Positions 3,695 to 55,860 of a stretch of 64,000 nucleotides of DNA are shown here, piece after piece. The stretch's first letter is position 1; every line of letters begins with the position of its first letter. Location of the stretch: assembly GCF_002252525.1 (NCBI RefSeq), contig NZ_NNRM01000043.1, positions 23,547 to 87,546 of the forward strand, in the 5' to 3' direction. The notes under the pieces were generated by a model. The model ran no database searches. It saw only the letters and a program-made list of their open reading frames with translations, and was not told the origin of the DNA. Made by a program: the position numbers and the translations under genes. The stretch is from Brucella pseudogrignonensis. GTDB taxonomy: Bacteria; Pseudomonadota; Alphaproteobacteria; Rhizobiales; Rhizobiaceae.

Positions 3695-4765
3695 ATGCCG
3701 TCTTCCTCAATTGACCGCTCGATCAATGGACTGCTTTTGCAGGTAAAAGATATCCGACCGCCCGCATTAGTGGGGTCAACTGCACCGATCAAAGCCGAAC
3801 TGGACCAGATGACCACTGGCAGCATCAATCGCACACAACCAACTCGTCAGGAAACTTCATCGACTTATGTTCCAACCGCCGACGACATGGCACCCGCGAT
3901 AGAAATGCCAAGAGGCGTTGATTCCAAAGAACAGATTGCAGCCTATCAGATCATGTTGAACAGGGCTGGCGCGTCGCCCGGCGCAATCGATGGGCGTTCC
4001 GGCAGCAATGTCGACAAGGCTGCTGCGGCTTTTGGCGAAATCACGGGTAGATTTATCAATCCAGCCGATCCCGCAGCGGTTCAGACCGAACTGGAGAATA
4101 CCGGCGGACCAGCTTTCAAGGATTACCTCATCACAAATGAAGATGTTGGCAGGCAGTTTGTTGCAGAAATCCCCGCTGACTACGCTTTGAAAGCCCAATT
4201 GCCAGCAATGGCTTATACCTCAGTCACGGAAATGCTTGCCGAGCGGTTTCAAATCGATGAGGGTTTCCTCAAAGAGATCAATCCAGGGGTGAATTTCAAT
4301 CAACCAGGCTCGATCATCAAAGTTCCCAATCTCGGCAAAGCCAAACGCACGCCGATTGCCCATATCATAGCAGATAAAGGTCGCAAACAGGTTCGGGGCT
4401 ATGGTTCAGATGGAAAGCTGAAGGTAGCCTACCCGTCAACGATCGGCTCTTCGGACACTCCTTCTCCTTCGGGCACGGTTCAGGTCAAACGAATAGCGAT
4501 CAATCCCAATTATACATACAATCCCAGGATCAACTTCAAACAGGGAGCCAATGAAGGCGTTCTGACCATTCCGCCTGGGCCAAACGGTCCCGTCGGTACG
4601 GTATGGATTGCGCTTTCCAAACCCACTTACGGTATTCATGGCACGCCTGACCCTTCACGCATCGGCAAAACATCGAGCCATGGCTGCGTGCGTCTTACAA
4701 ACTGGGATGCAGAAGAACTCGCAAGAATCGTCAAAACCGGCGTCCTGGTGGTGTTCACGGAATAA
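3695..4765 (+). CDS. L,D-transpeptidase (YkuD family), 5' end doubtful
   Basis: The 356-residue translation ends in a YkuD catalytic domain with the signature HGTPDP ... SSHGCVRLTNWD, where the cysteine of HGCVR is the acyl-enzyme nucleophile that makes 3-3 crosslinks in peptidoglycan or attaches lipoproteins to it. Upstream are a peptidoglycan-binding-like region (~75-115) and a LysM-like segment (ERFQIDEGFLKEINPG ... IIKVPNLG). Enzymes of this kind are exported, yet no signal peptide is present and the first ~25-30 residues resemble nothing. Because a RES-gene fragment lies in the opposite strand immediately upstream, the original 5' end has probably been replaced, and the protein may stay in the cytoplasm or be unexpressed. 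Confidence 0.8.
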   Translation: MPSSSIDRSINGLLLQVKDIRPPALVGSTAPIKAELDQMTTGSINRTQPTRQETSSTYVPTADDMAPAIEMPRGVDSKEQIAAYQIMLNRAGASPGAIDGRSGSNVDKAAAAFGEITGRFINPADPAAVQTELENTGGPAFKDYLITNEDVGRQFVAEIPADYALKAQLPAMAYTSVTEMLAERFQIDEGFLKEINPGVNFNQPGSIIKVPNLGKAKRTPIAHIIADKGRKQVRGYGSDGKLKVAYPSTIGSSDTPSPSGTVQVKRIAINPNYTYNPRINFKQGANEGVLTIPPGPNGPVGTVWIALSKPTYGIHGTPDPSRIGKTSSHGCVRLTNWDAEELARIVKTGVLVVFTE

Positions 4766-4789
4766 ACGATCATAAATTGGCCCGCCCGT

Positions 4790-4811
4790 CTGATTGCTTT
4801 TTCGCAATCAG
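4790..4811. terminator. Bidirectional hairpin between convergent genes
   Basis: CTGATTGC and GCAATCAG form a perfect 8-bp stem around a TTTTTC loop. It lies between the end of the transpeptidase gene and the convergent antitoxin gene, overlapping the latter's stop codon. There is no long T tract directly after the stem, so it is a likely but not certain terminator. Confidence 0.5.
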
Positions 4812-5125
4812 GCAATCGCTTCTAGCCCTTTTTTCTGAACAACCGTCAATAACCGTAGTGCCGGCCCTCCGGGCTTCTTCACTCCACGCTCCCAATCTGA
4901 CACCAGACCCTTGCTCACATTGAGATAACGAGCAAAGACGGGCTGCGATATATGTTCACGCTCCCGGATGGAGCGGATCTCTTCCGGGGTAAGCGGCTCA
5001 ATCGCGGTCAGGCAGACATCATCAAATTCTCGCATAGTCTGCTTGTCGATCGCGCCGACTTCAAACAGGCCCTCCATAGTTTCGTGGATGGCCGCCATTG
5101 CTTCGCTCTTATATTTCTTCACCAT
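4808..5125 (-). CDS. HigA-like antitoxin (XRE family)
   Basis: A 105-residue protein with an N-terminal helical region and a C-terminal HTH (EEIRSIREREHISQPVFARY ... LNVSKGLVSDWERGVKKP), the arrangement of HigA/NadS antitoxins whose toxin gene comes first. The ATG at 5125 was preferred to the TTG two codons upstream. It overlaps by 17 bases the 3' end of the toxin gene, typical of a coupled toxin-antitoxin operon. The protein would bind the toxin and repress the shared promoter upstream of 5495. Since the toxin is interrupted, it may now act only as a DNA-binding protein. Confidence 0.8.
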   Translation of the reverse strand: MVKKYKSEAMAAIHETMEGLFEVGAIDKQTMREFDDVCLTAIEPLTPEEIRSIREREHISQPVFARYLNVSKGLVSDWERGVKKPGGPALRLLTVVQKKGLEAIA

Positions 5126-5495
5126 CGTCAACCTCCGAAAAACGTCCTCTCTCGATCAGCAGCTCCATTTGCTCTTTTGATAACGCAAGAAGTTCCTTTG
5201 CCATCTTCTTGAATTGAACTTCTTCATCGTCATCAATGTTGGCCTGCTCATTCTTTGCAAAGCCGAACACGAAAAATGCCCGCCGCTCCTACCTATATAG
5301 AATGATCGTGCGAAACCCACCCGACTTTCCCTGTCCTGCCCGGGCGACTCGTTGCTTAATGACACCGCCACCAAGATCGGCGTCTATCTGACCGCGCTCG
5401 GCACGACGCACCGCTTCTATCAAGGCGACGTCCGTAATCCTCTGCTTTCGAGCAAACCGCTCGAACCAGGCGTTCTTCAGAATCTGCACCGTCAT
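5109..5495 (-). pseudogene. HigB/RelE-like toxin gene with an in-frame amber stop
   Basis: The first 68 codons encode MTVQILKNAWFERFARK ... GKSGGFRTIILYR, the N-terminal half of the RelE/HigB-like (DUF1044-type) toxins. A TAG at 5289-5291 interrupts it, and the same frame goes on with ERRAFFVFGFAKNEQANIDD and a helical tail to a TAA at 5109-5111. This continuation is exactly what the family has next, so a single nonsense change broke a 128-codon gene. Toxins of this family cleave mRNA on the ribosome. Only a truncated product without the second half of the fold would be made, unless the stop is suppressed or is a sequencing error. Confidence 0.75.
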
Positions 5496-5576
5496 CTACC
5501 CTGACTATATATATAACACCAAGCGTGACACTTCAAGGATTGTTGTTGTTCAATGACTGTCCCTGTGTGTCGGAAT

Positions 5577-6809
5577 TCATTGCGATCCTGCCGATGCCAG
5601 ACTTCCATTACCTTTCATCCCAGAAAACAAAAGCTGGCTGATGGAGAAGCCCCCTGCCCTCGCCTTTTGGGCAAGAGATCGCAAATAACCGCCTGGTGAA
5701 CTGATGGTCGCCAGCTTCTGCAGGATCCAGGCAATGGCCGTCGATGCCGCTTCTACTCCCATGAAGCTTAGTGCTTCGCGATAGGCAGACTTGCTAATGC
5801 CAAGGAAGCCGGAAACGATCTGTGAAGCATCTTGAAGCTCTCGCCATGTGCTGATGCCGTGCGCTCCATATTCGCGAATATCCGGACATGTTCGCAGCAC
5901 TTGATCGAGCGAAATGGAAGGTGAAACCCGAATGCGGTTCTCGTCTTCGAGGCTCTCAGGAACCGTCGTTTCCGAAGAAGACGCCTTCAAATCAATCTTT
6001 TTGTTATTTTGAGATTTAAAAAGGGATTCTGGCAGGGATTCATTATGCTGCCGCTCAAATTGAGCGACGCTGCCGCTCATTTCTGGAACAATTGCCATGT
6101 TTTTCAAAGCGATAACCAATTCATCGTATATGGCTGTCAGATTGGCTTTGATAATCATCAGCTCATCGAGGGATGCTCGGCGAGGAATAGCGTCTACAAC
6201 GTCACGGAAGCGAACAAATAGCCCTTCAAGACCCTCAATAAAGTCACCGGACCCATCCGCGTTTTCTGAAAAAGCCGAAGCGATCTCTCTGCGCATGACG
6301 GACACTTCATCGCGAAGCCGTTTCAAGGCTTTTTGCTCCGCAAGGATTTTATCTGCGATACCGGCAATCTCAGATGCGCGATCAAGCAAGGGCGCAAAGG
6401 AAAAGCCGAAGGCAAGTTCAACGCCCCCTTCCCTGTCCTTATGCGCATAACGCTTGCGGGTTGGGCTATCTTTGCGCGCAATGATCCCGGCCTCAACCAA
6501 TGAAGCCAGGTGACGGCGTAGCGTTGATTCAGGCATGCCGTGGGCACGCAGCGATAGTTGGCGATTGGATGGAAAAACGACGAGGCCGGTTTTCTCATTC
6601 ATGTCGTCGTCAGGGAGAAATGACAAAAGCGAACTGAGCACAGCAAGGCAGCGATCATTGAGATCGAGTGCTGACTTGGCCACACAGAGCTGTTTGTAAA
6701 TCACCCATCTGTTTACCCCCCTGCCCTGCTTATTCTGCAGTTCAGGATTTTGGGCGAAACTATTCCTTCGCCCGCGAAACACGGACGTGACAGTTCCCAG
6801 AATTTGCAT
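5577..6809 (-). CDS. repC: Replication initiator RepC
   Basis: RepC of the repABC family, 410 residues, close to the usual ~400-440. It initiates replication; in this family the origin lies inside the repC coding region, in an AT-richer central stretch. The N-terminal winged-helix region (VNRWVIYKQLCVAKSALDL ... STLRRHLASLVEAGII) and the C-terminal helical part (YREALSFMGVEAASTAIAWI) are recognisable. The ATG at 6809 has GAGAGGGA just upstream. It is the last gene of the minus-strand repABC operon and is separated from repB by 155 bases that encode the counter-transcribed RNA controlling its synthesis. Confidence 0.96.
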   Translation of the reverse strand: MQILGTVTSVFRGRRNSFAQNPELQNKQGRGVNRWVIYKQLCVAKSALDLNDRCLAVLSSLLSFLPDDDMNEKTGLVVFPSNRQLSLRAHGMPESTLRRHLASLVEAGIIARKDSPTRKRYAHKDREGGVELAFGFSFAPLLDRASEIAGIADKILAEQKALKRLRDEVSVMRREIASAFSENADGSGDFIEGLEGLFVRFRDVVDAIPRRASLDELMIIKANLTAIYDELVIALKNMAIVPEMSGSVAQFERQHNESLPESLFKSQNNKKIDLKASSSETTVPESLEDENRIRVSPSISLDQVLRTCPDIREYGAHGISTWRELQDASQIVSGFLGISKSAYREALSFMGVEAASTAIAWILQKLATISSPGGYLRSLAQKARAGGFSISQLLFSGMKGNGSLASAGSQ

Positions 6810-6868
6810 TCCCTCTCACCTTTCAAACGGCAAAAGAAATCCACCCGCCAAAATGACGCTTATGACTC

Positions 6869-6897
6869 TTGACACCGATTCGGGGAAATGCGATTCT
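6869..6897 (+). promoter_or_regulatory. Promoter of the counter-transcribed RNA
   Basis: TTGACA at 6869-6874 and GATTCT at 6892-6897 are separated by 17 bases on the plus strand, opposite to the rep operon. The predicted start near 6904 gives an RNA of ~53 nt up to the terminator, the size known for repABC ctRNAs. Confidence 0.65.
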
Positions 6898-6903
6898 CAG
6901 TCT

Positions 6904-6956
6904 GCTAAAACATCGAGAAGGGCTTCCACGACGGCAACGTTTGGGGGCCTTTTTCT
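6904..6956 (+). ncRNA. repABC counter-transcribed RNA (ctRNA, incompatibility RNA)
   Basis: The repB-repC intergenic region of repABC plasmids encodes a small antisense RNA that pairs with the repC leader and lowers RepC synthesis, fixing copy number and incompatibility group. Here a plus-strand promoter is followed ~50 bases later by an intrinsic terminator (GGCTTCC, 15 bases, GGGGGCC, then TTTTTC). The transcript is fully antisense to the repBC message. Exact ends are inferred from the promoter and terminator, not measured. Confidence 0.75.
6921..6955 (+). terminator. Intrinsic terminator of the ctRNA
   Basis: Stem GGCTTCC/GGGGGCC (7 pairs, two of them G-U in RNA) with a 15-base loop, followed by TTTTTC. 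In the antisense direction the same sequence is part of the repC leader structure. Confidence 0.65.
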
Positions 6957-6964
6957 TTTGCGGC

Positions 6965-7927
6965 TCAATCTCCATTCTTGGTTTCTGATTGCTTGAATTC
7001 CTCAAAGAGGATTTCAAGTCGCTCGGATAACCAATCGCCGAACGGTCTAGCTTTCTCGCTTTTGAAAGAGAAATCGACCTGTTTCGGCTTTTGACTCATC
7101 GTAATGGCAAATTCGCTAGATCCCCACGACTTTGCCGTTGGTGTGGTTCGTTCCTTTTTGACCGGCTTGCCTTTGGCATTCGCCGCAGTGAAGACCCGAT
7201 TGAAACGCTCGTCGCTATCTATTGAACCAAAATCGTCTGAAGTTACGATTTCGGAAATTGCAGCGGCCTTACGTTCGACTAGAAGGCTTAGTTCAAGCCA
7301 GCGTTCGCGCCCTACCCCAGGAGCTGACCCTATAATGTTGACGAGTTGCGGCGAAATACGGGACGTTACGGAAATCATCTTGGAAACCGCTGCCGCATTA
7401 GCTGCTAGTGCGGAGGAGATTGTTTCACGGTCATATCCGAGTGTCTCAAGATTTTTTGCGAAAAGAGCTTTCTCAATGAAACTGAGATTTGCTCGAGCCG
7501 AATTCTCTTGTCCTTGCGCGATAATATGTGTTTTGTCGTCAAGTGCCTTTACAACTGCTCGAACATTGCGTCCGAGCTCGCGGGCTACCTTTACACGACG
7601 ATGACCAAAGACGATCATAAAACGACCATCTATGCTTGGATGAGGACGAACGAGTATAGGACTGTCCTGTCCCCGTTCCTGGATAGCTTGAAGAAGCTGC
7701 TGATATTCTTCACCATCAGTACCAAGACGATCAGATACAAAAGAACTGTCTATAACATTTGGATCGAGGTCGACGACTTGCTCGCCTTCAAGGAAAGCGT
7801 CAGCTTGACGTGCAAGCTCATTAACAGAACGGATCATGGATTTGGATGCGCCACCGATCCGATAATTGGACGTCACTGGCTCTTCGGTTGACTCCGTAAG
7901 TCCCGCCAGAAGATTTTTCCTAGCCAT
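6965..7927 (-). CDS. repB: Plasmid partitioning protein RepB (ParB family)
   Basis: A 320-residue ParB-type centromere-binding protein. The ParB N-terminal nuclease-like domain holds QDSPILVRPHP ... FMIVFGHRRVKVARELG (~90-125), followed by the HTH region (LSFIEKALFAKNLETLGYDR ... ISSALAANAAAVSKMI). It binds parS-like palindromes and works with RepA in segregation. Translation starts at the ATG at 7927 (MARKNLLAG), 69 bases after repA stops. The repA-repB gap contains one of two TTTGTC/GACAAA palindromes that are candidates for its binding site. Confidence 0.96.
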   Translation of the reverse strand: MARKNLLAGLTESTEEPVTSNYRIGGASKSMIRSVNELARQADAFLEGEQVVDLDPNVIDSSFVSDRLGTDGEEYQQLLQAIQERGQDSPILVRPHPSIDGRFMIVFGHRRVKVARELGRNVRAVVKALDDKTHIIAQGQENSARANLSFIEKALFAKNLETLGYDRETISSALAANAAAVSKMISVTSRISPQLVNIIGSAPGVGRERWLELSLLVERKAAAISEIVTSDDFGSIDSDERFNRVFTAANAKGKPVKKERTTPTAKSWGSSEFAITMSQKPKQVDFSFKSEKARPFGDWLSERLEILFEEFKQSETKNGD

Positions 7928-7979
7928 TTCAATCTCCGTAATCGCTTATCTCACTGAATTTGCAATCATAAATGCTGAA

Positions 7980-7995
7980 TTTGTCAGCAGACAAA
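7980..7995. promoter_or_regulatory. Palindrome between repA and repB, candidate parS copy 1
   Basis: TTTGTC-AGCA-GACAAA, 6-bp perfect arms around a 4-base centre, immediately after the repA stop codon. A second copy with 7-bp arms and centre GGCG lies upstream of repA (9384-9401). The 16-bp palindromic form fits the size of known repABC partition sites. Confidence 0.55.
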
Positions 7996-7996
7996 C

Positions 7997-9205
7997 TCAT
8001 CTGCCCCAAGATTCGTGGATAAGGCCTTCAATTTCGCCATTGACGGCATCTAATGATTCAATTGCACGTTCATAGGTGGAACGTGTCATCGTGCTTTTTT
8101 CGACCTCATAGAGCGTTTGCTTTGTGATCCCTGCATCTGAGACAGCGGTTGATTTGACCATCTGGTTCTTGAGGATAAACTCGCCAAACAATGTCTGCAA
8201 AAAAGCCACCATCTGAGCCTGTGGCTGATCTGTTGGCTCGTATCTTGTTACAAGGTAGCGATACCATTCCAGATTTACCTCTGCGCCGGCAGCGCGGATA
8301 GGCTCGAGAATATTGCCAAGCATCAGGAGGAACTGGCCCATCGACATCACATCCAGCATCTGGGGATGTATCGTGATAAGAACTGCCGTGGCTGACGTGA
8401 GCGCCGTTATAGTCAGGTAGCCAAGCTGTGGAGGGCAATCAATGACGACGATGTCGTATTGATCGTCAACTTCTTCGAGGGCTTTCGAGATGCGGGTAAA
8501 GAATGATTTACCAGCATTCGAATTGCGGTCACTCATTGCGAGGGGGGTATCATATTCGAATTCCTGCAATTCCAAATTTGCAGGAACGATGTCCAGTCCA
8601 GGAAAGTTGGTGTTCTGAATAATTTCAGAGAGCGGCTTTTGCTCCTCATCATATCGGATCGCGTCATAGATTGAAGGGACCTGATCCAACTCCGGTTGAA
8701 ACCCGTGCAGTGACGAAAGCGAGGCTTGAGGATCGAGGTCGATTGCCAAGACGCGATGACCAGTAAGAGCCAGATGTTGGGCCAGATGGGCGGTAGTTGT
8801 AGTTTTCCCAGAGCCGCCTTTGAAGTTAACGACCGCTATGACCTGAAGATGTTCGCCTGGCTTTCTGTGCGGGACGTAATTACGTGTTTCCGATCGACCG
8901 TTTTGATCAAGATACTGGCGAATGTCATGCATCTGCTCAGCGGTGTACGATCGCCGACCCGACGGCGAAGTTTCAGGAGCGGGGCCTTTGCCTTCCAAAT
9001 GAAGTTTCTTAAGGTGACTCTGGCTTACACCTATATATTGTGATGCTTCTGCAAGAGAGAATGAACGAAGTGTCTTTTTTCCAGAATCTGGGAAGTTCTG
9101 AACGCTGAGCAAATGCAACTTCTTCGAAATTTGATCCCCTTGATCGAGGATGTGTTTTTCGAATTTAAGCGTGGCTTTCGGCTTTTTGAGCGAGATCTCG
9201 TTCAT
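7997..9205 (-). CDS. repA: Plasmid partitioning ATPase RepA (ParA family)
   Basis: ParA-type Walker ATPase, 402 residues from the ATG at 9205; a TTG start at 9250 would add 15 residues of unsupported sequence. The N-terminal part has a MerR-like HTH (SLAEASQYIGVSQSHLKKLH) for autoregulation, and the ATPase core has the deviant Walker A KGGSGKTTTTAHLAQ and the Walker B-like IVVIDCPPQLG. It powers plasmid segregation with RepB and represses the repABC promoter. First gene of the operon; the promoter should lie between 9206 and ~9420, where a palindrome is found. Confidence 0.95.
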   Translation of the reverse strand: MNEISLKKPKATLKFEKHILDQGDQISKKLHLLSVQNFPDSGKKTLRSFSLAEASQYIGVSQSHLKKLHLEGKGPAPETSPSGRRSYTAEQMHDIRQYLDQNGRSETRNYVPHRKPGEHLQVIAVVNFKGGSGKTTTTAHLAQHLALTGHRVLAIDLDPQASLSSLHGFQPELDQVPSIYDAIRYDEEQKPLSEIIQNTNFPGLDIVPANLELQEFEYDTPLAMSDRNSNAGKSFFTRISKALEEVDDQYDIVVIDCPPQLGYLTITALTSATAVLITIHPQMLDVMSMGQFLLMLGNILEPIRAAGAEVNLEWYRYLVTRYEPTDQPQAQMVAFLQTLFGEFILKNQMVKSTAVSDAGITKQTLYEVEKSTMTRSTYERAIESLDAVNGEIEGLIHESWGR

Positions 9206-43502: not shown

Positions 43503-43650
43503 TTAGTTGACTGAGATTTCAATCTGTTTCGGTTTGGCTTGCTCGGCCTTGACAAGCCGCACTTCCAGCGCGCCGTCTTTCATCGAAGCCGTCACCTTGG
43601 TCGAATCAACGTTGTCAGGCAAGACAAAGTTGCGCACAAAGTGACCTGCC
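43503..43650 (-). pseudogene. Hsp20 gene remnant (C-terminal ~48 residues)
   Basis: The minus strand reads HFVRNFVLPDNVDSTKVTAS, then MKDGALEVRLVKAEQAKPKQ and IEISVN before a stop, the last strands of an alpha-crystallin domain (GxL replaced by GAL). The first two thirds were removed at the border with the IS3 copy near 43655. LHR loci have an hsp20 gene directly before yfdX, as here. Confidence 0.8.
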
Positions 43651-43659
43651 ACTGAACTT

Positions 43660-45549: not shown

Positions 45550-45764
45550 CAGCACCTCGCATTTTCGGTGTCAGGTGGCATGCACGGCTTTGCATCGGCG
45601 TCCGGCGCCTCTGCGTCCCGGTGCCGCAGGAAGATTGGCGTCGGACCGCTGCCGAACGGATTGAAGCCGGTGCTCAGGCAACGGTCGAAGATCGTTTCGT
45701 CCCATCGGGTGAAATCGTGCTCCTCGCCGGCAAGTCGCTCGTCATCCACCACAGGGCACCTCAC
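45549..45764 (-). CDS. Small protein coupled to hdeD
   Basis: 71 residues from a GTG that overlaps the hdeD stop (GTGA), and its own stop TGA overlaps the ATG of the next gene (TGATG). This double overlap argues for real translation. The sequence has a central WDETIFDRCLSTGFNPFGSG and two late cysteines but no membrane helix and no family that I know. Confidence 0.55.
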   Translation of the reverse strand: MRCPVVDDERLAGEEHDFTRWDETIFDRCLSTGFNPFGSGPTPIFLRHRDAEAPDADAKPCMPPDTENARC

Positions 45765-46408
45765 GCCTTTGCCGATGGGGGAGCGTCATCGAAGGCCGCA
45801 CCGTCCGAACGATCCGCCTTGCGAAGCCGTAGCCCGAGGAGGATCATCATCACCCCGAAGACCGCGGCGTAGAAGCCGATCAGCCAGCCGAGCGCGAGGA
45901 AGCTTTCGACCGGGCGCGTCAGCAGCATCCAGGTCACGACGACACCGAGAACGACCGAGAGAAGGCCGCTCAGGATCAGCCAGATTTCGCCGTTGATTTC
46001 CTTTCGCAGGCGGATCGCTGCCGCGATCTCGAGGGCACCCGAGAACACGGACCAGAATGCGATGCTGGCCCAGAGGAATGTCGCAAGCACAAGCGTCGCC
46101 ACGAACGGCGAGAAGACCACGACGACCCCCGTGGCGATCCCCAGAATGCCGCTGAACATCAGCCAGCCCCAGCGATCGCCCCCGCGGATGTTGCGGACGG
46201 CGGCGACGAGGCCGAACACGCCATCGGCGAAGGCGAAAGCGCCGAAGACCAGCGTCAGAGCAAGCAGCGACTCCGCAGGCATGAGGAAGGCGAGAACCGC
46301 GATCACCAGCGCCAGGACACCGCGCAGCACGAACAGCCACCAGTTCCCGGACAGGCTGCCCAGCATGTCCTGCATCGTGTCGGATTGCTTTGCAGAGGTT
46401 GTCGTCAT
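45761..46408 (-). CDS. hdeD: HdeD-like membrane protein
   Basis: A 215-residue inner-membrane protein with six helices arranged as three hairpins; WWLFVLRGVLALVIAVLAFL and GWLMFSGILGIATGVVVV are the family's DUF308 repeats. HdeD is linked to acid and heat tolerance and is a standard LHR gene. It overlaps the HPF-sigma gene by 4 bases (ATGA) and the small downstream gene by 4 bases. Confidence 0.92.
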   Translation of the reverse strand: MTTTSAKQSDTMQDMLGSLSGNWWLFVLRGVLALVIAVLAFLMPAESLLALTLVFGAFAFADGVFGLVAAVRNIRGGDRWGWLMFSGILGIATGVVVVFSPFVATLVLATFLWASIAFWSVFSGALEIAAAIRLRKEINGEIWLILSGLLSVVLGVVVTWMLLTRPVESFLALGWLIGFYAAVFGVMMILLGLRLRKADRSDGAAFDDAPPSAKA

Positions 46409-47577
46409 TGGTCCATCTCCTGTTCAGGTTTCAACTCAGTAGTGCCGATTGTCTCCGCGCCGGCCAGGGCGGCCGCCACGCGGCGGCGGTCCTCGACCGG
46501 TTGAGGCAGACACTGCGTCCGGGCAATTTCCCTTTCCACGGGCGCGCGCCCCGATGCCTCGCCGATCAACCCGGCTTCGACCAGCGTGCCGCGCAGTGTC
46601 TCCGCCGCGTTCTCTGCAATCTTCAACACTTCCGCCTCAGTGAGACCCAGGAGGTGCGCCGTCTCCGCGATCGTGGCGTCTTCCAGGTACATCCGATACA
46701 GGACGCGGCGCTCGACCGGAGCAAGATCTGCGATAGCCCGGTGCAGTGCCATGGCGATATCATGACGATCCACTTCGGTCTCGGGGTCTGTGCCGCCGTC
46801 GTCGGCGATGAGGTCCTCCAGCATCAGCACTTCGTCGGGCTGGTAGAACTCGAACATCGCCTGATCCGCCTCGGTCGGATCCTCCGCCGGGGCCTCGGGT
46901 TCCGCCTCGATGGAGGCGGCATCCTCGGGCACCGCGCGGCGCGCAGCCTGCGCCTCGGCCTCGACGGTCTCGAAGGCCAGCTGCGTCAGCCAGTCCCGGA
47001 CGGAGAATTCGGTCGGCCGCCGCTCGAAGCGGTTGAGCCCGTTGAGGATCGTCGCATCGACGATATCGCCAACGCTCAGGTAGCCAGCCGGCACAGACCC
47101 GCTACACTCGAGATAGGTCAACTCGCGCCTGACTGTATCGTAGACCGTATCGAGATGATCCTCGATCAGGTCGAAGAAGAGTTGGCGCCGGTCCGCTTCC
47201 GCCGCATCCCGCGCGGGCGGCAGCGGGGCGCCGATCCGGCGCCGGCGGGCGGGACGCTTGTATTCAGGCTCGTGCTTGAGGCGCGCCACATGCCGATCGA
47301 CCTGGTGGCGCAGGTCGGCAAAGGCCTTGCGCAGGACAGGCTCGATCTCGAATCCATCTTCCCGCGCCGCGATCACGCCCGACGGCAGTTGCAGGCGCAG
47401 GCTGACTTTGATGCGCGTCTTGCCCCTCGTCTGCGAGGCAACGACTTCGAGCCGGACCAGATCCTCGCGAAAGCGCGCAAGGTGCGGTTCAAGTTGCCGC
47501 AATTCTTCCTCGATGACCTCAGGCGCGCGCTGTTGGCCGTGCCGGTCGAGATTGCGGAATGATCTAATGACGTTCAT
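46405..47577 (-). CDS. Fusion of HPF/RaiA-like domain with sigma-70-like regions
   Basis: 390 residues. Residues ~1-105 look like a ribosome hibernation factor (VIRSFRNLDRHG, RIKVSLRLQLPSGVIAARED, VLRKAFADLRHQVDRHVARL). Residues ~133-205 resemble sigma-70 region 2 (LFFDLIEDHLDTVYDTVRRE, LSVGDIVDATILNGLNRFER, SVRDWLTQLAFETVE). After an acidic linker, ~288-340 form a region-4-type HTH (LAPVERRVLYRMYLEDATIA, ETAHLLGLTEAEVLKIAENA). The ATG at 47577 has AGGAAGG before it. It could couple ribosome protection with transcription, or the sigma parts could act as an anti- or pseudo-sigma. It lies between clpK and hdeD in one operon. Confidence 0.75.
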   Translation of the reverse strand: MNVIRSFRNLDRHGQQRAPEVIEEELRQLEPHLARFREDLVRLEVVASQTRGKTRIKVSLRLQLPSGVIAAREDGFEIEPVLRKAFADLRHQVDRHVARLKHEPEYKRPARRRRIGAPLPPARDAAEADRRQLFFDLIEDHLDTVYDTVRRELTYLECSGSVPAGYLSVGDIVDATILNGLNRFERRPTEFSVRDWLTQLAFETVEAEAQAARRAVPEDAASIEAEPEAPAEDPTEADQAMFEFYQPDEVLMLEDLIADDGGTDPETEVDRHDIAMALHRAIADLAPVERRVLYRMYLEDATIAETAHLLGLTEAEVLKIAENAAETLRGTLVEAGLIGEASGRAPVEREIARTQCLPQPVEDRRRVAAALAGAETIGTTELKPEQEMDQ

Positions 47578-47654
47578 GCCGTGGACCTTCCTATAACTCT
47601 CCGAAGAGATGGTCCGGCGCGACCGATATCGCGCCGGGCCAGTCTTTTGCGCTG

Positions 47655-50549
<2,895 letters not shown>

Positions 50550-50611
50550 TTTTCCTCTCCGTTTCTTTATCCAGTCAGGGTTGTCCGCGATCATCTGCGT
50601 CAGTGACGGTG

Positions 50612-52444
50612 TCAGGCAGCGACCGCTTCCGTTCTTTTCACCTTGGACCCAATTGCCACCAGATCGGGCTCGTCCAGTGTCTCGCGTTGCAGGAGATCCT
50701 GCGCGGATTGCTCGAGCAGCGCCCGGTTGGCTTCGAGAAGCGAGAGGGTGCGCTTGAACACGCCATCCCCGATGTCGCGCACCTTCGAGTCCATCCGCTC
50801 GGCAGTGGCCTCGCTATAGCGGCGGTTCAGCCACGACGACTGGTCGCCGGTGCCGAGAAAGCCTGGCCGATCGCTGTCGTAGCTGACATGCCCGAGGCCT
50901 TCGTCCATCCCGTACCGCGCGACCATGGCGCGGGCGATATCGGTAGCCTTGACCAGATCGTCGGCCGCCCCGGTCGAGACATGATTGTAGATGATCTTCT
51001 CGGCCGCGCGCCCGCCAAGCAGGACTGCGATCTTGTTCTCCAGCTCCTCCCGCGTCATCAGGAAGCGGTCCTCGGTCGGGCGCTGGATAGTGTAGCCGAG
51101 CGCGCCAATTCCGCGCGGGATGATCGAGACCTTGTGCACCGGGTCCACCCCCGGCAGAGCCATCGCCACAAGCGCGTGCCCCATCTCGTGGTGCGCCACG
51201 ATCTCGCGTTCGCGCGGATTGAGCACGCGGTTCTTCTTTTCCAACCCGGCGATGATGCGCTCCACGGCATTGTTGAAGTCGTCCATCGTCACCGCATCGG
51301 CCTTGCGGCGCGTGGCGAGCAATGCTGCCTCGTTGACGAGATTGGCAAGATCGGCGCCCGAGAAGCCGGGCGTGAGCGCTGCGACCTTCTCGGCATCAAC
51401 GTCTGGGGCGAGCGTCACTTTCTTCATGTGCACGTTCAATATCTGCACACGCCCCCTCTTGTCGGGCCGGTCCACCAGCACCTGACGGTCGAAGCGTCCC
51501 GCACGCAGCAGCGCGGGGTCGAGGATCTCGGGCCGGTTGGTGGCGGCCAGGAGCACGATGCCCACCGAAGGGTCGAAGCCGTCGAGCTCGGTCAGAAGCT
51601 GGTTCAGCGTCTGCTCACGCTCATCATGGCCACCGGCGATCTGGCCGGAGGAGCGCGCCCTCCCAAGAGCGTCGAGTTCGTCGATGAAGATGATTGCCGG
51701 GGCCGATTTCCTGGCCTGCTCGAAGAGGTCGCGCACCCGTGCGGCACCTACGCCCACGAACATCTCGACGAACTCGGAGCCCGAGATCGAAAAGAAGGTC
51801 ACGCCGGCCTCGCCTGCCACCGCGCGCGCCAGCAGCGTCTTGCCGGTGCCCGGCGGCCCAACGAGCAATATGCCTTTGGGGATATGTGCGCCCAGCTTTC
51901 CGTATTCGGCCGGGTTCTTGAGGAACTCCACGACCTCCTCGAGCTCGGCCTTGGCCTCGTCCACACCGGCCACGTCGGCGAAGCTGACACCGGTTTCTTT
52001 TTCCATGTAAACCTTGGCCTTGCTGCGGCCGACCTGCATGAACCCGCCGAAGCCCTGCTTGTCGGCGAACTTGCGGAACAGCAGCATCCAGATTCCGAAG
52101 AAGATAAGCGCTGGCGCCACCCAGGAAATCAGCGTGCCGAGAAAAGTGTTTTGCGGAACGCCAGTGATCTCGATACCTGACCGGTCTATCCGTTCCAGGA
52201 TTGCGGGATTCACTACGGTCGTCACGAACTGCTTCTTGCCGTCGACGGGTTCGGCGAAGGTGCCTGTGATAGTGTCTGACCCGACCGCGACAGAAGAAAT
52301 TTTCCCGTCAGCGAGATACTTCTCGAACTGGCTGTAGCTGATCGGCGCGACGGATTGCCAGCCGGCGATCAGGTTCTGGATGAAAAGCACGGCTATGAAA
52401 GCCACCACCCAGTACCAGATGTTATATTCGGTCTTCCTTTCCAT
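50612..52444 (-). CDS. ftsH: FtsH-type membrane AAA+ metalloprotease
   Basis: 610 residues. Two N-terminal membrane helices ([20 protein letters not shown] and [19 protein letters not shown]), AAA+ domain with [16 protein letters not shown] (~193), [14 protein letters not shown] and the second region of homology [20 protein letters not shown], and the zinc site HEMGH (~416). It degrades damaged membrane and cytoplasmic proteins. LHR loci carry an extra ftsH beside clpK. The start is ATG at 52444; an in-frame GTG six codons earlier overlaps the marR stop. Confidence 0.94.
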
Positions 52445-52458
52445 GCCGCTTGTCCCTT

Positions 52459-52890
52459 TCACTGGCGCCCGAGCCGCGCCCTGATCCGCTCGAGCAGCGC
52501 CAGCAGGGCGCGCCTTTCGTCCGCCGACAGATCCTGGAAGATTTCATGTTCGAGCGCCGATTGCCGCGGCGCGAGTTCCTCCAGCATCGCCCGGGCCTTC
52601 GACGTTGCCGTGACGATCTGCGCCCGCCTGTCGTCGGGCGAGGGCGACCGCTCGACCCAGCCGCCCCGGACCATGCGATCGACGAGCTGGCCGGCTGTGG
52701 CCTGGCCGACCTCCAGCAGGTCGGCCAGATCGCCGATGGTCAGCCCAGGCGCATCCTCGACATGCGCCGCCGCCATCCAGGACAGGCGGGTCAGGCCGCT
52801 GCCGCGGATGTCTTGGTCGATCCGCTGCTGGATGAGCTGCGCGACCCGGTGGATCGTCGTCCCGATCAGCGCGATGTCCGAAGAGATCAT
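52459..52890 (-). CDS. MarR-family repressor of the stress operon
   Basis: 143 residues, winged-helix MarR type: LTRLSWMAAAHVEDAPGLTI leads into the recognition region GDLADLLEVGQATAGQLVDR and the wing RGGWVERSPSPDDRRAQIVT. The ATG at 52890 has AAGGATAA before it; 28 extra codons upstream lie in the promoter region. It heads the minus-strand operon with ftsH and clpK and faces the hsp20 genes across a 201-bp divergent promoter region, so it probably controls both directions. Confidence 0.88.
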   Translation of the reverse strand: MISSDIALIGTTIHRVAQLIQQRIDQDIRGSGLTRLSWMAAAHVEDAPGLTIGDLADLLEVGQATAGQLVDRMVRGGWVERSPSPDDRRAQIVTATSKARAMLEELAPRQSALEHEIFQDLSADERRALLALLERIRARLGRQ

Positions 52891-52960
52891 GGTTATCCTT
52901 CCGCCGATTGCATGGTACACAGGAGAAACCGCCCCCCATCCAAAACGCAATGCACCCATC

Positions 52961-52978
52961 ATACATGCTTGCATAATA
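52961..52978. promoter_or_regulatory. Candidate MarR operator
   Basis: ATGC-TT-GCAT lies within an AT-rich surround in the divergent region. It overlaps the CTTG -35 element of the RpoH-type promoter, so a bound repressor would block it. Confidence 0.4.
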
Positions 52979-52996
52979 AATGGAACGGCCTATCTT
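52968..52996 (+). promoter_or_regulatory. RpoH-type heat-shock promoter for hsp20 genes
   Basis: CTTG at 52968-52971, 17 bases, then CCTATCTT at 52989-52996. The alphaproteobacterial heat-shock consensus is CTTG-N17/18-CYTATNT. Transcription would start near 53003, ~90 bases before the first hsp20 start codon. Confidence 0.7.
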
Positions 52997-53006
52997 GATA
53001 GGCGTT
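52982..53006 (+). promoter_or_regulatory. EcfG-type general-stress promoter, near-symmetric
   Basis: GGAAC at 52982-52986, 16 bases, CGTT at 53003-53006: a full match to the alphaproteobacterial EcfG consensus. The same bases on the minus strand read AGAAC-N16-CGTT, one mismatch, so it may also fire toward marR-ftsH-clpK. The inverted repeat GCCTATC-TT-GATAGGC occupies its spacer and overlaps the RpoH -10 box. Confidence 0.65.
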
Positions 53007-53032
53007 CTCCGAACCCACATCCGGCCGGCACC

Positions 53033-53085
53033 GTTGCCCGGTCCCTCCATGCCGACGGTTCGGGGTATCGATCAGCAACAGGAGG
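53033..53085 (+). promoter_or_regulatory. Possible thermosensing leader of hsp20
   Basis: CCCTCC (53043-53048) can pair with the Shine-Dalgarno GGAGG (53081-53085), while GTTGC (53033) can pair with GCAAC (53075); the two pairings cross and would be alternatives. Small-Hsp leaders in rhizobia often hide the ribosome site this way. Pairing is inferred only by eye. Confidence 0.3.
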
Positions 53086-53091
53086 CCAGCA

Positions 53092-53517
53092 ATGCTCTAC
53101 CCGACATATCTGCGCCGCAGCGATCCCTTTGCGCTGATGCGCTCCATGATGCGCGATCTCGACCGCGGTTTCTGGCCGCCGTCCCGCGCGGCGTTCCCGG
53201 CGGTAAATGTCTGGCAAGGCCCTGAGGCCGTTGCAGTCACCGCTGAACTTCCCGGCATCGAACCGGACGACATTGAAATTTCGGTCAAGGACAACGTCCT
53301 GACGCTGTCGGGCGAACGCAAGGCGCCCGAGGTTCCCGACGGTGCGCGCTGGCACCGCAACGAACGCAGTTTCGGCAGGTTTTCCCGCACTATCCGCCTG
53401 CCGTTCGCGGCCTCGGATGACAAGGTCGAGGCGAGAATGACGAACGGCGTATTGCGGATCGTCATCTCCCGGCCCGAGGAAGAAAAGCCGAAGAAAATCG
53501 AGATCAAGGCAGCCTGA
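53092..53517 (+). CDS. Small heat-shock protein Hsp20 (first of three)
   Basis: 141 residues with an alpha-crystallin domain (AVNVWQGPEAVAVTAELPGI ... DNVLTLSGERK ... FSRTIRLPFAASDDKVEARM, TNGVLRIVIS). The short N-terminal arm (LRRSDPFALMRSMMRDLDRG) drives oligomers. It binds unfolding proteins and passes them to ClpK-type disaggregases. Good ribosome site GGAGG. First gene after the divergent promoter, 14 bases before the next hsp20. Confidence 0.93.
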   Translation: MLYPTYLRRSDPFALMRSMMRDLDRGFWPPSRAAFPAVNVWQGPEAVAVTAELPGIEPDDIEISVKDNVLTLSGERKAPEVPDGARWHRNERSFGRFSRTIRLPFAASDDKVEARMTNGVLRIVISRPEEEKPKKIEIKAA

Positions 53518-53531
53518 GAGGAGCTGGAACG

Positions 53532-53930
53532 ATGAGCACCGACATCTCGCAAGCCGCCGAAAAGACGCCGACCGACTCGCCTGAGACCACCGGCGGCGGA
53601 CGCATCTACCGCCCGTCGACCGATATCGTCGAGACCGATCAGGGTTTCTCCATGATGCTTGAAATGCCTGGGGTCGCCGCCGATGCGATCGAAATCACGC
53701 TCGAAAATCGTGTGTTGACGATCCGCGGCAAGGTTGACCCGGTGCGGCCGAAAAACCTCGAACTTGCCTATGCCGAATATGGCGAGGGCGATTTCGAGCG
53801 TGCCTTCACGCTTTCCGAGGACTTCGACCCCGACAGGATCGAAGCCGAGATGCGAGGAGGCGTCCTAACTTTAACGCTCCCCCGGGCCCCTGAAGCGCAG
53901 CCGAAAAGGATCGCCGTCAAGGGCGCCTGA
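53532..53930 (+). CDS. Small heat-shock protein Hsp20 (second)
   Basis: 132 residues. A Thr/Ser-rich N-terminal arm is followed by the crystallin domain: IVETDQGFSMMLEMPGVAAD, ENRVLTIRGKV, FERAFTLSEDFDPDRIEAEM and RGGVLTLTLPRAPEAQPKRI with the C-terminal anchor. GAGAGGAGC precedes the ATG. Acidic and divergent from the first copy, so the three Hsp20 proteins may form mixed oligomers. Confidence 0.93.
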   Translation: MSTDISQAAEKTPTDSPETTGGGRIYRPSTDIVETDQGFSMMLEMPGVAADAIEITLENRVLTIRGKVDPVRPKNLELAYAEYGEGDFERAFTLSEDFDPDRIEAEMRGGVLTLTLPRAPEAQPKRIAVKGA

Positions 53931-53949: not shown

Positions 53950-54441
53950 ATGCAGATCAAAGACCTCATCCCCTGGGCGCGCAAGGACGGCGCGCCAGAC
54001 GCCAAGAGCAGCGAAGACAACCCGATCGCGACACTCCAGCGCGAAATGAACCATGTGTTCGAGAACTTTTGGAACCGGGTCGGTCAGTTCGAATGGCCCT
54101 GGGGCAGCGGCGAAGCCAAATCCGACATGGTCGAGACCGACGACGCGATCGAAGTGTCGATCGAGCTGCCGGGCATGGAGATGAAAGACATCGAGGTAAC
54201 GGTCAACGATGACATGTTGACTGTGAAGGGGGAGAAGAAGATCGAGCGCCAGGAGAAGAAGACGGGATACTATCTCTCCGAGCGCAGCTACGGCGCGATC
54301 TACCGGACAATTCCGCTCCCTCCCGGTGTGGATGGCGAAAAGGCGCAAGCATCCTTCAAGAACGGGGTTCTGACGATCAAGCTGCCCCAGACACCCGAGG
54401 CGCAGGCGAAGATCAAGCGCATCGATGTCAAGAACGGCTGA
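53950..54441 (+). CDS. Small heat-shock protein Hsp20 (third)
   Basis: 163 residues, class with a longer N-terminus (IKDLIPWARKDGAPDAKSSE, TLQREMNHVFENFWNRVGQF). The crystallin domain has DMVETDDAIEVSIELPGMEM, NDDMLTVKGEKKIE and SYGAIYRTIPLPPGVDGEKA, FKNGVLTIKLPQ. CTAAGGAG precedes the ATG. It closes the hsp20 trio and is followed by a terminator-like hairpin. Confidence 0.93.
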   Translation: MQIKDLIPWARKDGAPDAKSSEDNPIATLQREMNHVFENFWNRVGQFEWPWGSGEAKSDMVETDDAIEVSIELPGMEMKDIEVTVNDDMLTVKGEKKIERQEKKTGYYLSERSYGAIYRTIPLPPGVDGEKAQASFKNGVLTIKLPQTPEAQAKIKRIDVKNG

Positions 54442-54552: not shown

Positions 54553-55047
54553 ATGATGAAAGACCTGAAACGATCCGGGCTAACCCGTGAACAATGGTCG
54601 GCGATGACGCTCTACGAGAAGTTCGAACAGGTCGTCATTTTCGTCCTCAGCGCCATCATTGCGGTTATCGTCGTGGCATCGGTTTGGGCGCTGATGCGCG
54701 AGGTCGTGAACCGGTTGGTCTTGGGAGCGTTCGACACGCTCGATTACGCCACCTTCCAGGTGGTGTTCGGAATGATCTTCACTGTTGTAATTGCGCTCGA
54801 GTTCAAGCGCTCCCTTCTTGTGGCGACAGAACGCAGCTTCGGGATCCTCCAAGTCCGCACGATCGTGCTGATCGCGCTCCTCGCGATCGCGCGCAAATTC
54901 ATCATCCTCGACCTTGGCGAGACGGAGCCAGCCAAGATTGCCGCCCTCGCGGGCGCGGCTCTTGCGCTCGGAGCAGTCCACTGGCTGGTGCGCGATCAGG
55001 ACCGGCGCGAAGAACCCGGTGCTAAAAATGCCGAAGGCGATCAATGA
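54553..55047 (+). CDS. psiE: PsiE-family membrane protein
   Basis: 164 residues with four membrane helices; FEQVVIFVLSAIIAVIVVAS at the start, then VFGMIFTVVIALEFKRSLL and VRTIVLIALLAIARKFIILD are typical of the phosphate-starvation-inducible E family. A psiE gene is a constant member of LHR loci; its molecular role is unknown. Start ATG at 54553 or the next codon, GAGGGGGA before it. The degP gene often found next to psiE in such loci is absent. Confidence 0.88.
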   Translation: MMKDLKRSGLTREQWSAMTLYEKFEQVVIFVLSAIIAVIVVASVWALMREVVNRLVLGAFDTLDYATFQVVFGMIFTVVIALEFKRSLLVATERSFGILQVRTIVLIALLAIARKFIILDLGETEPAKIAALAGAALALGAVHWLVRDQDRREEPGAKNAEGDQ

Positions 55048-55432
55048 GCCGAAGCGTTTTCGTTCGACTTGTTTCATCAACCTCTGCCGCACTCATCAGC
55101 ATAATTGTTTAGCAGAAATCTTTTATCATGCCGAGCGTTGCGCTGGGTCGGTTTGCCGCGCCGCGCGCCGTCGCTTCCCGCGGAGACTTGGCGGCGTTCG
55201 AACAAAGCACCATCACAGTTTTCAACGCCACTCGAGACAGTGCGTCTCCATCGCGACAACCGAGCGTATAGTCGATCCCTAAACCCGGAGTGCCTATGAC
55301 GGTCCGCGTGGGAACGGCTCGCGGTTCATTTGGGACGAACTCTAATCAATTTTTCGGCCCACTCATATGCTCTCTAATTGAAACCAACACGCTCTCTGGA
55401 GTGAACCCCTCGGGCTGGATGACCTTTTTCAA
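55048..55432. other. Gene-free stretch between psiE and the DUF2382 genes
   Basis: About 385 bases. Short open frames on both strands show no family resemblance and no good ribosome sites. The right part runs into an EcfG-type promoter. Confidence 0.4.
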
Positions 55433-55457
55433 GGAACAAGGTTGGACTCCGCTCGTT
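55433..55457 (+). promoter_or_regulatory. EcfG-type general-stress promoter before the DUF2382 genes
   Basis: GGAAC at 55433-55437, 16 bases, CGTT at 55454-55457, again a full consensus match with the same spacing as the hsp20 promoter. Predicted start ~55464, about 25 bases before the ATG. Confidence 0.65.
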
Positions 55458-55488: not shown

Positions 55489-55860
55489 ATGGCCGAGCCT
55501 GACAAGAAACTAGCGCTGATCGAAGAACAGCTTGTCATCTACAAGCGCGCCGTGAGCGACGGCCGCGTTCGCGTGAGCACCAAAACCGAGTTTGTCACAG
55601 AAGCAGCGGAAGCACGCCTCGACAGCGAGAATGTCGAGGTGACGCGTGTGGCAATCGGACGTGAAGTGTCAGAAGCGCCGGCCGTTCGCACGGACGGTGA
55701 CGTGACCATCGTGCCTGTGATGGAGGAGGTTCTCGTTGTCGAGAAGCGTCTGATGCTGGTCGAAGAGATCCACATCCGCCGCGTCGCCACCACCGAGGAC
55801 GTTTCCATTCCGGTCGAACTGCGCAAGCAACGTGCCACCATCGAGCGCGACGACCCCTGA
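55489..55860 (+). CDS. YsnF/AvaK-type DUF2382 protein
   Basis: 123 residues. The DUF2382 pattern of repeated charged strands is visible: LIEEQLVIYKRAVSDGRVRV, then VPVMEEVLVVEKRLMLVEEI and IHIRRVATTEDVSIPVELRK. Such stress proteins are cytoplasmic and of unknown mechanism; they are frequent in radiation- and desiccation-tolerant bacteria and often under general-stress sigma factors, as the promoter here suggests. 32 bases separate it from its longer paralogue. Confidence 0.82.
   Translation: MAEPDKKLALIEEQLVIYKRAVSDGRVRVSTKTEFVTEAAEARLDSENVEVTRVAIGREVSEAPAVRTDGDVTIVPVMEEVLVVEKRLMLVEEIHIRRVATTEDVSIPVELRKQRATIERDDP

Follow-up and report, generated by a model that had tools for sequence, protein, structure and literature searches.

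An RpoH-type promoter overlapped by candidate MarR boxes in the spacer of a tLST-like stress island of Brucella pseudogrignonensis

It is not settled what turns on a mobile heat-resistance island after its arrival in a new host. The question is raised here by a 64,000-nucleotide stretch of Brucella pseudogrignonensis DNA (the window), in which a 201-bp marR-hsp20 spacer divides two opposed stress operons. Reading outward from the spacer, the minus strand carries genes for a MarR regulator, FtsH, a ClpK/ClpG-like protein, a sigma-70-like protein and an HdeD-like protein, and the plus strand carries three hsp20 genes and then psiE (Table 1). The initial annotation had read this spacer as one inverted repeat encoding both an RpoH (heat shock) and an EcfG (general stress) promoter, possibly firing both ways. 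The letters on which it relied at 52961-53010 are all present as it gave them: CTTG-N17-CCTATCT, GGAAC-N16-CGTT and, on the minus strand, AGAAC-N16-CGTT. The conserved parts of the spacer point to control by a host RpoH and by a MarR repressor that the island carries itself.

Genes for Hsp20, ClpK/ClpG-like, FtsH, HdeD-like and PsiE proteins link the locus to the tLST heat-resistance islands, of which it is an alphaproteobacterial relative. Alphaproteobacterial tLST with an expanded set of small Hsp genes have already been reported (PMC8290217; here and below, papers are cited from partial text). ClpK and ClpG are still the best families for the disaggregase, which scores 1295 bits against the ClpG model (cut-off 1900); since its ClpK match falls below the NCBI cut-off, we call the island tLST-like. 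Gene order is near-identical on Shinella and Roseomonas plasmids, the Shinella relative being also annotated with TrxC and a cation:proton antiporter, and a gene of equal length at the HdeD-like position of another relative (L051) is annotated HdeD. Whereas a MerR-like Orf1/Dna stands first in the E. coli tLST, as far as the accessible text describes it, the arrangement here is divergent, with marR-ftsH-clpK facing three hsp20 genes and with MarR as the regulator. Neither a MerR-like Orf1/Dna nor a yfdX gene is annotated in the parts of L051 and L052 examined. MarR does not occur in the available portion of the tLST review (PMC8290217), and no prior paper on a marR//hsp20 promoter was among the open-access literature matches listed. 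The solved structures that the regulator matches best are chains bearing the name multiple antibiotic resistance protein MarR. Elsewhere in the window, an hsp20 gene fragment on the minus strand (43512-43655, 49 profile positions matched) adjoins an integrase/transposase-like open reading frame and is apparently a remnant.

Table 1. Features of the spacer and of the two operons that it divides (window coordinates)
Feature	Position	Strand	Remarks
RpoH-type promoter of the hsp20 genes: -35 CTTG (52968-52971), 17 nt, -10 CCTATCT (52989-52995)	52968..52995	+	
Predicted transcription start of the RpoH-type promoter	53004	+	inferred with A52992 = -12 and T52995 = -9, R. sphaeroides numbering (PMC3441632, partial text)
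Candidate MarR operator: box 1 TGCACCCA (52951-52958), box 2 TGCTTGCA (52966-52973), 15 bp apart	52951..52973	.	
EcfG-like motif: GGAAC (52982-52986), 16 nt, CGTT (53003-53006)	52982..53006	+	allele-specific; 13/66 loci, 10/57 unique spacers
EcfG-like motif AGAAC-N16-CGTT	52984..53008	-	allele-specific; same 13/66 loci as the plus motif
Inverted repeat spanning the -10 and the predicted start, TT centre	52985..53006	.	rank 1 of 892 placements
Conserved 7-bp leader stem: CCGAACC (53009-53015) with GGTTCGG (53057-53063)	53009..53063	+	pairs hardly vary
MarR-family regulator, 143 aa, start most likely 52890	52459..52890	-	Pfam MarR_2 1.3e-15
FtsH protease	50612..52462	-	Pfam Peptidase_M41, AAA, FtsH_ext
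ClpK/ClpG-like AAA+ disaggregase	47655..50594	-	NF033606 ClpK 1596.7 bits, under cut-off 1900
Sigma-70-like protein with N-terminal S30AE (ribosome hibernation) domain	46405..47658	-	TIGR02937 49.2 bits (cut-off 42.9)
HdeD-like membrane protein	45761..46408	-	Pfam DUF308 9.4e-27
hsp20 gene 1	53092..53517	+	Pfam HSP20 9e-23
hsp20 gene 2	53532..53930	+	Pfam HSP20 6.9e-20
hsp20 gene 3	53950..54441	+	Pfam HSP20 1.2e-22
PsiE-family membrane protein	54553..55047	+	Pfam PsiE 5.2e-29

The spacer was compared across 66 marR//hsp20 loci including the window, which hold 57 unique spacers. Through MarR, 45 loci were found in genome contigs; 12 came from plasmid records, two from a class sample, and the remaining six from viral contigs and from order and phylum samples. 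Thirteen of 15 plasmid matches were taken in (H9 and H15 were left out), one of the thirteen, L060, being without marR. A further locus, L122, was left out of the counts, its MarR being 36% identical and no hsp20 match being found there. At E 1e-25, distant MarR relatives occurred in 3/385 genomes of the class sample, 6/397 of the order sample and 2/398 of the phylum sample, the genome under study being counted in each. Some counts rest on smaller sets (58 loci with 50 unique spacers, or 60 loci with 52). Dyad and allele counts use 50 of the 57 unique spacers, the main group, leaving out L042, L044, L046, L052, L043, L121 and L123; tree-based counts of change use 46 main-group spacers out of the 50 unique ones of the 58-locus set, with L042, L044, L046 and L052 left out. 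In the latter, changes at a comb of columns were counted on a tree of the flanking genes, and the same comb was slid along the spacer as background. The loci are related sequences and so are not independent of one another.

Such a comparison is needed for the promoter motifs. With at most one mismatch, the RpoH pattern was found 3 times in the window against 3.66 expected, and the companion scan for the EcfG pattern gave 19 against 15.05 expected; in the whole genome (5.53 Mb), exact matches numbered 12 for RpoH (20 for the reversed control) and 67 for EcfG (88 for its reversed control). Both bare patterns thus occur at chance frequency, and conservation rather than the match itself has to decide. 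For the promoter facing hsp20 it does so in favor of RpoH, as the initial annotation had it. CTTG-N16-18-CYTATNT is present in 59 of the 66 loci and in 50 of the 57 unique spacers, the exceptions being L025, L042, L044, L046, L052, L121 and L123, and TTG-N17-19-C.AT.T, built on the capitals of the R. etli consensus, in 56/66 loci. The RpoH comb underwent 3 changes over 11 columns, compared with a mean of 17.3 for slid placements; placements as conserved were 12 of 174 overall and 2 of 89 upstream of 53006. The other half of the cross-island comparison that had been proposed, that of the EcfG consensus, did not rise above the local background in this way (see below).

The boxes also resemble the RpoH promoters described in other alphaproteobacteria. 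As far as the cited text extends, the R. etli consensus is cTTGaa-N16-CgATaT for RpoH and cTTGAc-N16-cnATAA for sigma-70; CTTGCA-N16-CTATCT meets all capitals of the former and misses the final AA of the latter (PMC4167512). At -14, -13 and -9 the site has C, T and T, the bases preferred by RpoHII and RpoHI in R. sphaeroides (PMC3441632). The island promoter is thus like those of R. etli and R. sphaeroides, as excerpted, in its CTTG -35, its C-AT-T -10 and its spacing of 16 between hexamers, and differs in being embedded between two dyads, one over the -35 and one over the -10. The host groES promoter, CTTGAC-N17-CTATCT, has the -10 hexamer CTATCT in common with the island promoter and departs from CTTG-N16-18-CYTATNT in having T for C ahead of CTATCT and a spacer one base longer. 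It adjoins a CIRCE-like repeat. For comparison, three chromosomal hsp20 loci were searched on both strands for CTTG-N16-18-C-N-TA[TG]-N-T, which allows a looser -10, and none contained it; one of the three (L111) has the loose TTG-N17-20-C.AT.T, and only that, upstream on its own strand. The host encodes the factors needed, as had been supposed: one RpoH match lies over the TIGR02392 cut-off, one lies below it and passes the cut-off of a different sigma-32 model, and a third, weaker, lies in a long frame; a general-stress locus with NepR, PhyR and a neighboring sigma factor is present as well. A trio of hsp20 genes on Paracoccus plasmid p4 (L060) was considered as further support and set aside, its CTTG and CTTATCT lying 20 nt apart. 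This record (4716-8713) is a different Paracoccus plasmid stress cluster, with htpX opposite three hsp20 genes and with DnaJ-like and MerR-like genes.

A housekeeping reading of the same boxes has to be weighed, namely that hsp20 is transcribed mainly from a sigma-70 promoter under MarR gating, the RpoH resemblance being secondary. Four of the exceptions, L042, L044, L046 and L052, have by eye a sigma-70-like TAGGAT, TAGGCT or TAGAAT at the place of the RpoH -10 and keep the MarR-type boxes, so that the promoter could be housekeeping in part. Overlap of RpoH and SigA promoters is frequent among the R. etli predictions (26 cases in the available text of PMC4167512), and transcription of clpG on a P. 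aeruginosa island is reported, in the accessible part of PMC7685784, to be sigma 32 independent, in contrast with the RpoH-type promoter found here. Against this reading, a simple sigma-70 scan gave no site in 52500-53400, and the conserved -10 is CTATCT, as in the host groES promoter. We hold a mainly housekeeping promoter to be unlikely. On the minus strand, TATGAT (52958-52963 in the window) occurs somewhere in 35/50 unique spacers, and no good -35 for it was found by eye.

A third candidate reader of the promoter is the island's own S30AE-sigma fusion, which would make the island partly self-wired. Its gene lies in the marR operon and is present in 45 of 46 other loci longer than 9 kb; the one lacking it, L032, is uninformative, because it stops about 2.2 kb beyond marR. 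A sigma-24-like gene is, moreover, called a hallmark of one tLST (PMC8290217, partial text). Nothing links the protein to the spacer site, however, and the ECF-like GGAAC and CGTT bases are the variable ones. The region 4 match is weak (Sigma70_r4, 26.6 bits), and the Ribosomal_S30AE match, at 22 bits, is under its cut-off of 23.7. That this protein reads the spacer promoter seems hardly probable.

The element on the -35 box is of another kind. The initial annotation had noted a MarR-type ATGC-TT-GCAT site on the -35, and this site (ATGCTTGCAT, 52965-52974) proved to contain one of two boxes that together form a 23-bp palindrome, TGCNNGCA-N7-TGCNNGCA, box 2 of which covers the -35 of the hsp20 promoter. 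The pair is found with at most 2 mismatches of 12 in 65/66 loci and with at most 1 in 62. In 1000 shuffles each, the observed match was reached 0 times for L001, L007 and L044, once for L042 and L046, and 15 times for L052; a gap of 7 between the boxes was the best of gaps 3-13 in 5/5 spacers tested. Centred on the pair is the second-best dyad of 892 placements (7.64 of 10 pairs). The single miss is L121, whose MarR is 71% identical and whose 3 mismatches were reached by 54/500 shuffles. When slid as a comb within the main group, the boxes are only moderately conserved (39/179 placements), a result of variation in box 1, where the window too carries one mismatch.

The position of the boxes, their type of palindrome and their persistence make the pair the best candidate for an operator of the adjacent MarR. 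Known MarR or SlyA sites are similar in type only. Judging from the partial text of PMC5797941, which gives the SlyA site as TTAGCAAGCTAA, the common traits are a short palindrome with a GCAAGC core, a place next to the regulator's own gene and a promoter-occluding position, whereas the island boxes lack the outer TTA/TAA bases and come as two, 15 bp apart. The boxes are kept in L042, L044, L046, L052 and L123 though the RpoH -10 is gone. That the most diverged copies retain the boxes while the RpoH -10 has been replaced suggests a circuit with a constant repressor and an exchangeable sigma input.

The EcfG-like motifs behave differently. GGAAC-N15-17-NGTT and its minus-strand counterpart are restricted to the same loci and absent from 53 of the 66. 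The plus comb underwent 19 changes over 9 columns, with 132/177 placements as conserved or more, and the minus comb 22 changes over 9 columns, with 150/177; this is the opposite of what would be expected of a promoter used family-wide. Position 53005, inside CGTT, is G in 39 of 50 unique main-group spacers and T in 11. All 11 of the latter also carry G52987 and A53000, and they thus represent one allele. Records bearing it come from Methylobacterium/Methylorubrum, Brucella/Ochrobactrum, Shinella, Agrobacterium and Ciceribacter, with one MAG labelled Rhodocyclaceae; the laboratory strain M. extorquens AM1 (L053) has the allele in a spacer that it shares with L037. In L054 and L055 the allele stands, by eye, in another background, which suggests recombination between islands at these loci.

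Within this allele, EcfG may possibly be used directly, so that RpoH and EcfG would both read the same ~40 bp toward hsp20 and heat and general stress would both act without an intermediate. The plus motif fits the general-stress consensus of EcfG (RpoE2/RpoE4), ggAAC-N16-cgTT, exactly, and the identical form stands ahead of the host phyR. Among the 11 unique spacers of the allele, the 20 columns that lie within 52977-53012 and belong to neither the EcfG nor the RpoH boxes show 0 changes, as opposed to 26/165 columns elsewhere, and copies are found in records from several genera. Overlapping RpoH and RpoE promoters are also predicted in R. etli (7 cases in the available text of PMC4167512). 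The sole variable column of the block, however, is 52984, where L018 has GGTAC for GGAAC, breaking the EcfG -35; the exact motif is at chance frequency in the genome, and unlike the general-stress promoters that it resembles, it is missing from most of the homologous loci and has changed more than most placements have. Direct use seems rather unlikely to us. Of the proposal that two stress sigma factors share ~40 bases, the RpoH half is supported, and the EcfG half is not as a general input.

The host does possess an EcfG system through which general stress could act at one remove. Its locus includes nepR (NepR over cut-off), phyR (392 bits, cut-off 240) and an adjacent ECF sigma gene, which we name EcfG from its position. 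The second host rpoH (rpoH2) has an exact EcfG motif ~190 nt upstream of its likely start, and RpoE4 controls rpoH2 in R. etli, according to the accessible text of PMC4167512. With a route from EcfG to RpoH2 to hsp20, no EcfG site would be needed in the spacer.

The suggestion that the repeat also fires toward marR, making marR-ftsH-clpK an EcfG operon as well, fares worse. AGAAC-N16-CGTT does stand on the minus strand of the EcfG-bearing allele. It is off consensus at the first -35 base, whereas the plus motif is exact; its columns change even more often in the comparison above, and it is not independent evidence, because it is largely implied by the dyad once the plus motif exists. An RpoH motif on the minus strand occurs in 1/50 unique spacers. 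Two-way firing from EcfG is in our judgment very improbable, and the wiring of marR-ftsH-clpK to stress sigma factors was not borne out.

The inverted repeat itself is real. Over the 50 unique main-group spacers, the dyad centred at 52995/52996 has a mean of 8.2/10 complementary pairs, the highest of 892 placements, which include overlapping placements of the same centres. The arms in the window are GCCTATC (52988-52994) and GATAGGC (52997-53003), two bases apart; the commonest allele has CCGCCTATC/GATGGGCGG, with one mismatch. Arm sequences thus differ between alleles, and what is retained is the dyad, not the EcfG bases. The repeat that had been described as encoding promoters is the best-kept dyad of the spacer, conserved as such and not as two EcfG promoters; it would most simply be another, putative operator. 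The repeat was also considered as an intrinsic terminator on the minus strand (1 found against 0.4 expected) and rejected, since no minus-strand transcript would be expected from hsp20.

The allele data could be put together in another way, as two alleles of one mobile promoter. In this scheme G52987, A53000 and T53005 keep the dyad and create an EcfG motif on both strands, with the RpoH and MarR boxes unchanged; the allele would have spread by plasmid transfer, perhaps with recombination, among Hyphomicrobiales, and a single 40-bp repeat would thus have come to give the island access to a second host sigma factor. We regard this full sequence of events as quite improbable.

The reading that we favor, and consider probable on the strength of the sequence comparisons, combines a host RpoH that drives hsp20, an island MarR that occludes the -35, and an indirect general-stress input. 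A tLST-like protein-quality-control island would be controlled from the spacer. RNA polymerase carrying host RpoH, probably RpoH1 and RpoH2, would start the hsp20-hsp20-hsp20-psiE transcript near the predicted start. MarR, presumably responsive to a ligand, would bind the TGCNNGCA palindrome and block access to the hsp20 -35, and it may also repress its own divergent operon, which runs from marR through ftsH and clpK to the sigma-like gene. The other conserved dyad, which spans the -10 and the start, may serve as a further operator. General stress would most likely reach hsp20 indirectly, from EcfG to RpoH2.

Downstream of the promoter, the hsp20 leader carries a stem that changed twice over 14 columns, with 3/147 placements as conserved. 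An RNA thermometer was considered for this leader and rejected: pairing of the Shine-Dalgarno (SD) sequence varies among copies and is not above that of shuffles (median SD unpaired 0.24 versus 0.21 in shuffles, 33 leaders). The leader of the window does not fold more strongly than shuffles, and between 52400 and 55600 no Rfam thermometer matched, the only hit being a CRISPR-repeat match of sub-threshold score within hsp20. Relatives with G at 53005 have a GGTCTCC that could pair with the SD. In L043, a deletion has removed ~55 bp of leader sequence together with part of a dyad arm, yet both the RpoH boxes and the box pair are still present. There are apparently two leader haplotypes, distinguished at 53016, at 53044-53046 (CCT or GGA) and at 53055, which again suggests recombination between islands. 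Beyond psiE, a further exact GGAAC-N16-CGTT lies at 55433-55457 on the plus strand, 31 nt ahead of the start of a DUF2382 gene (55489-55860). It is without counterpart in the island relatives examined, whose similarity stops at 55396 or earlier, and it looks like a better candidate for an EcfG promoter than the motif in the spacer.
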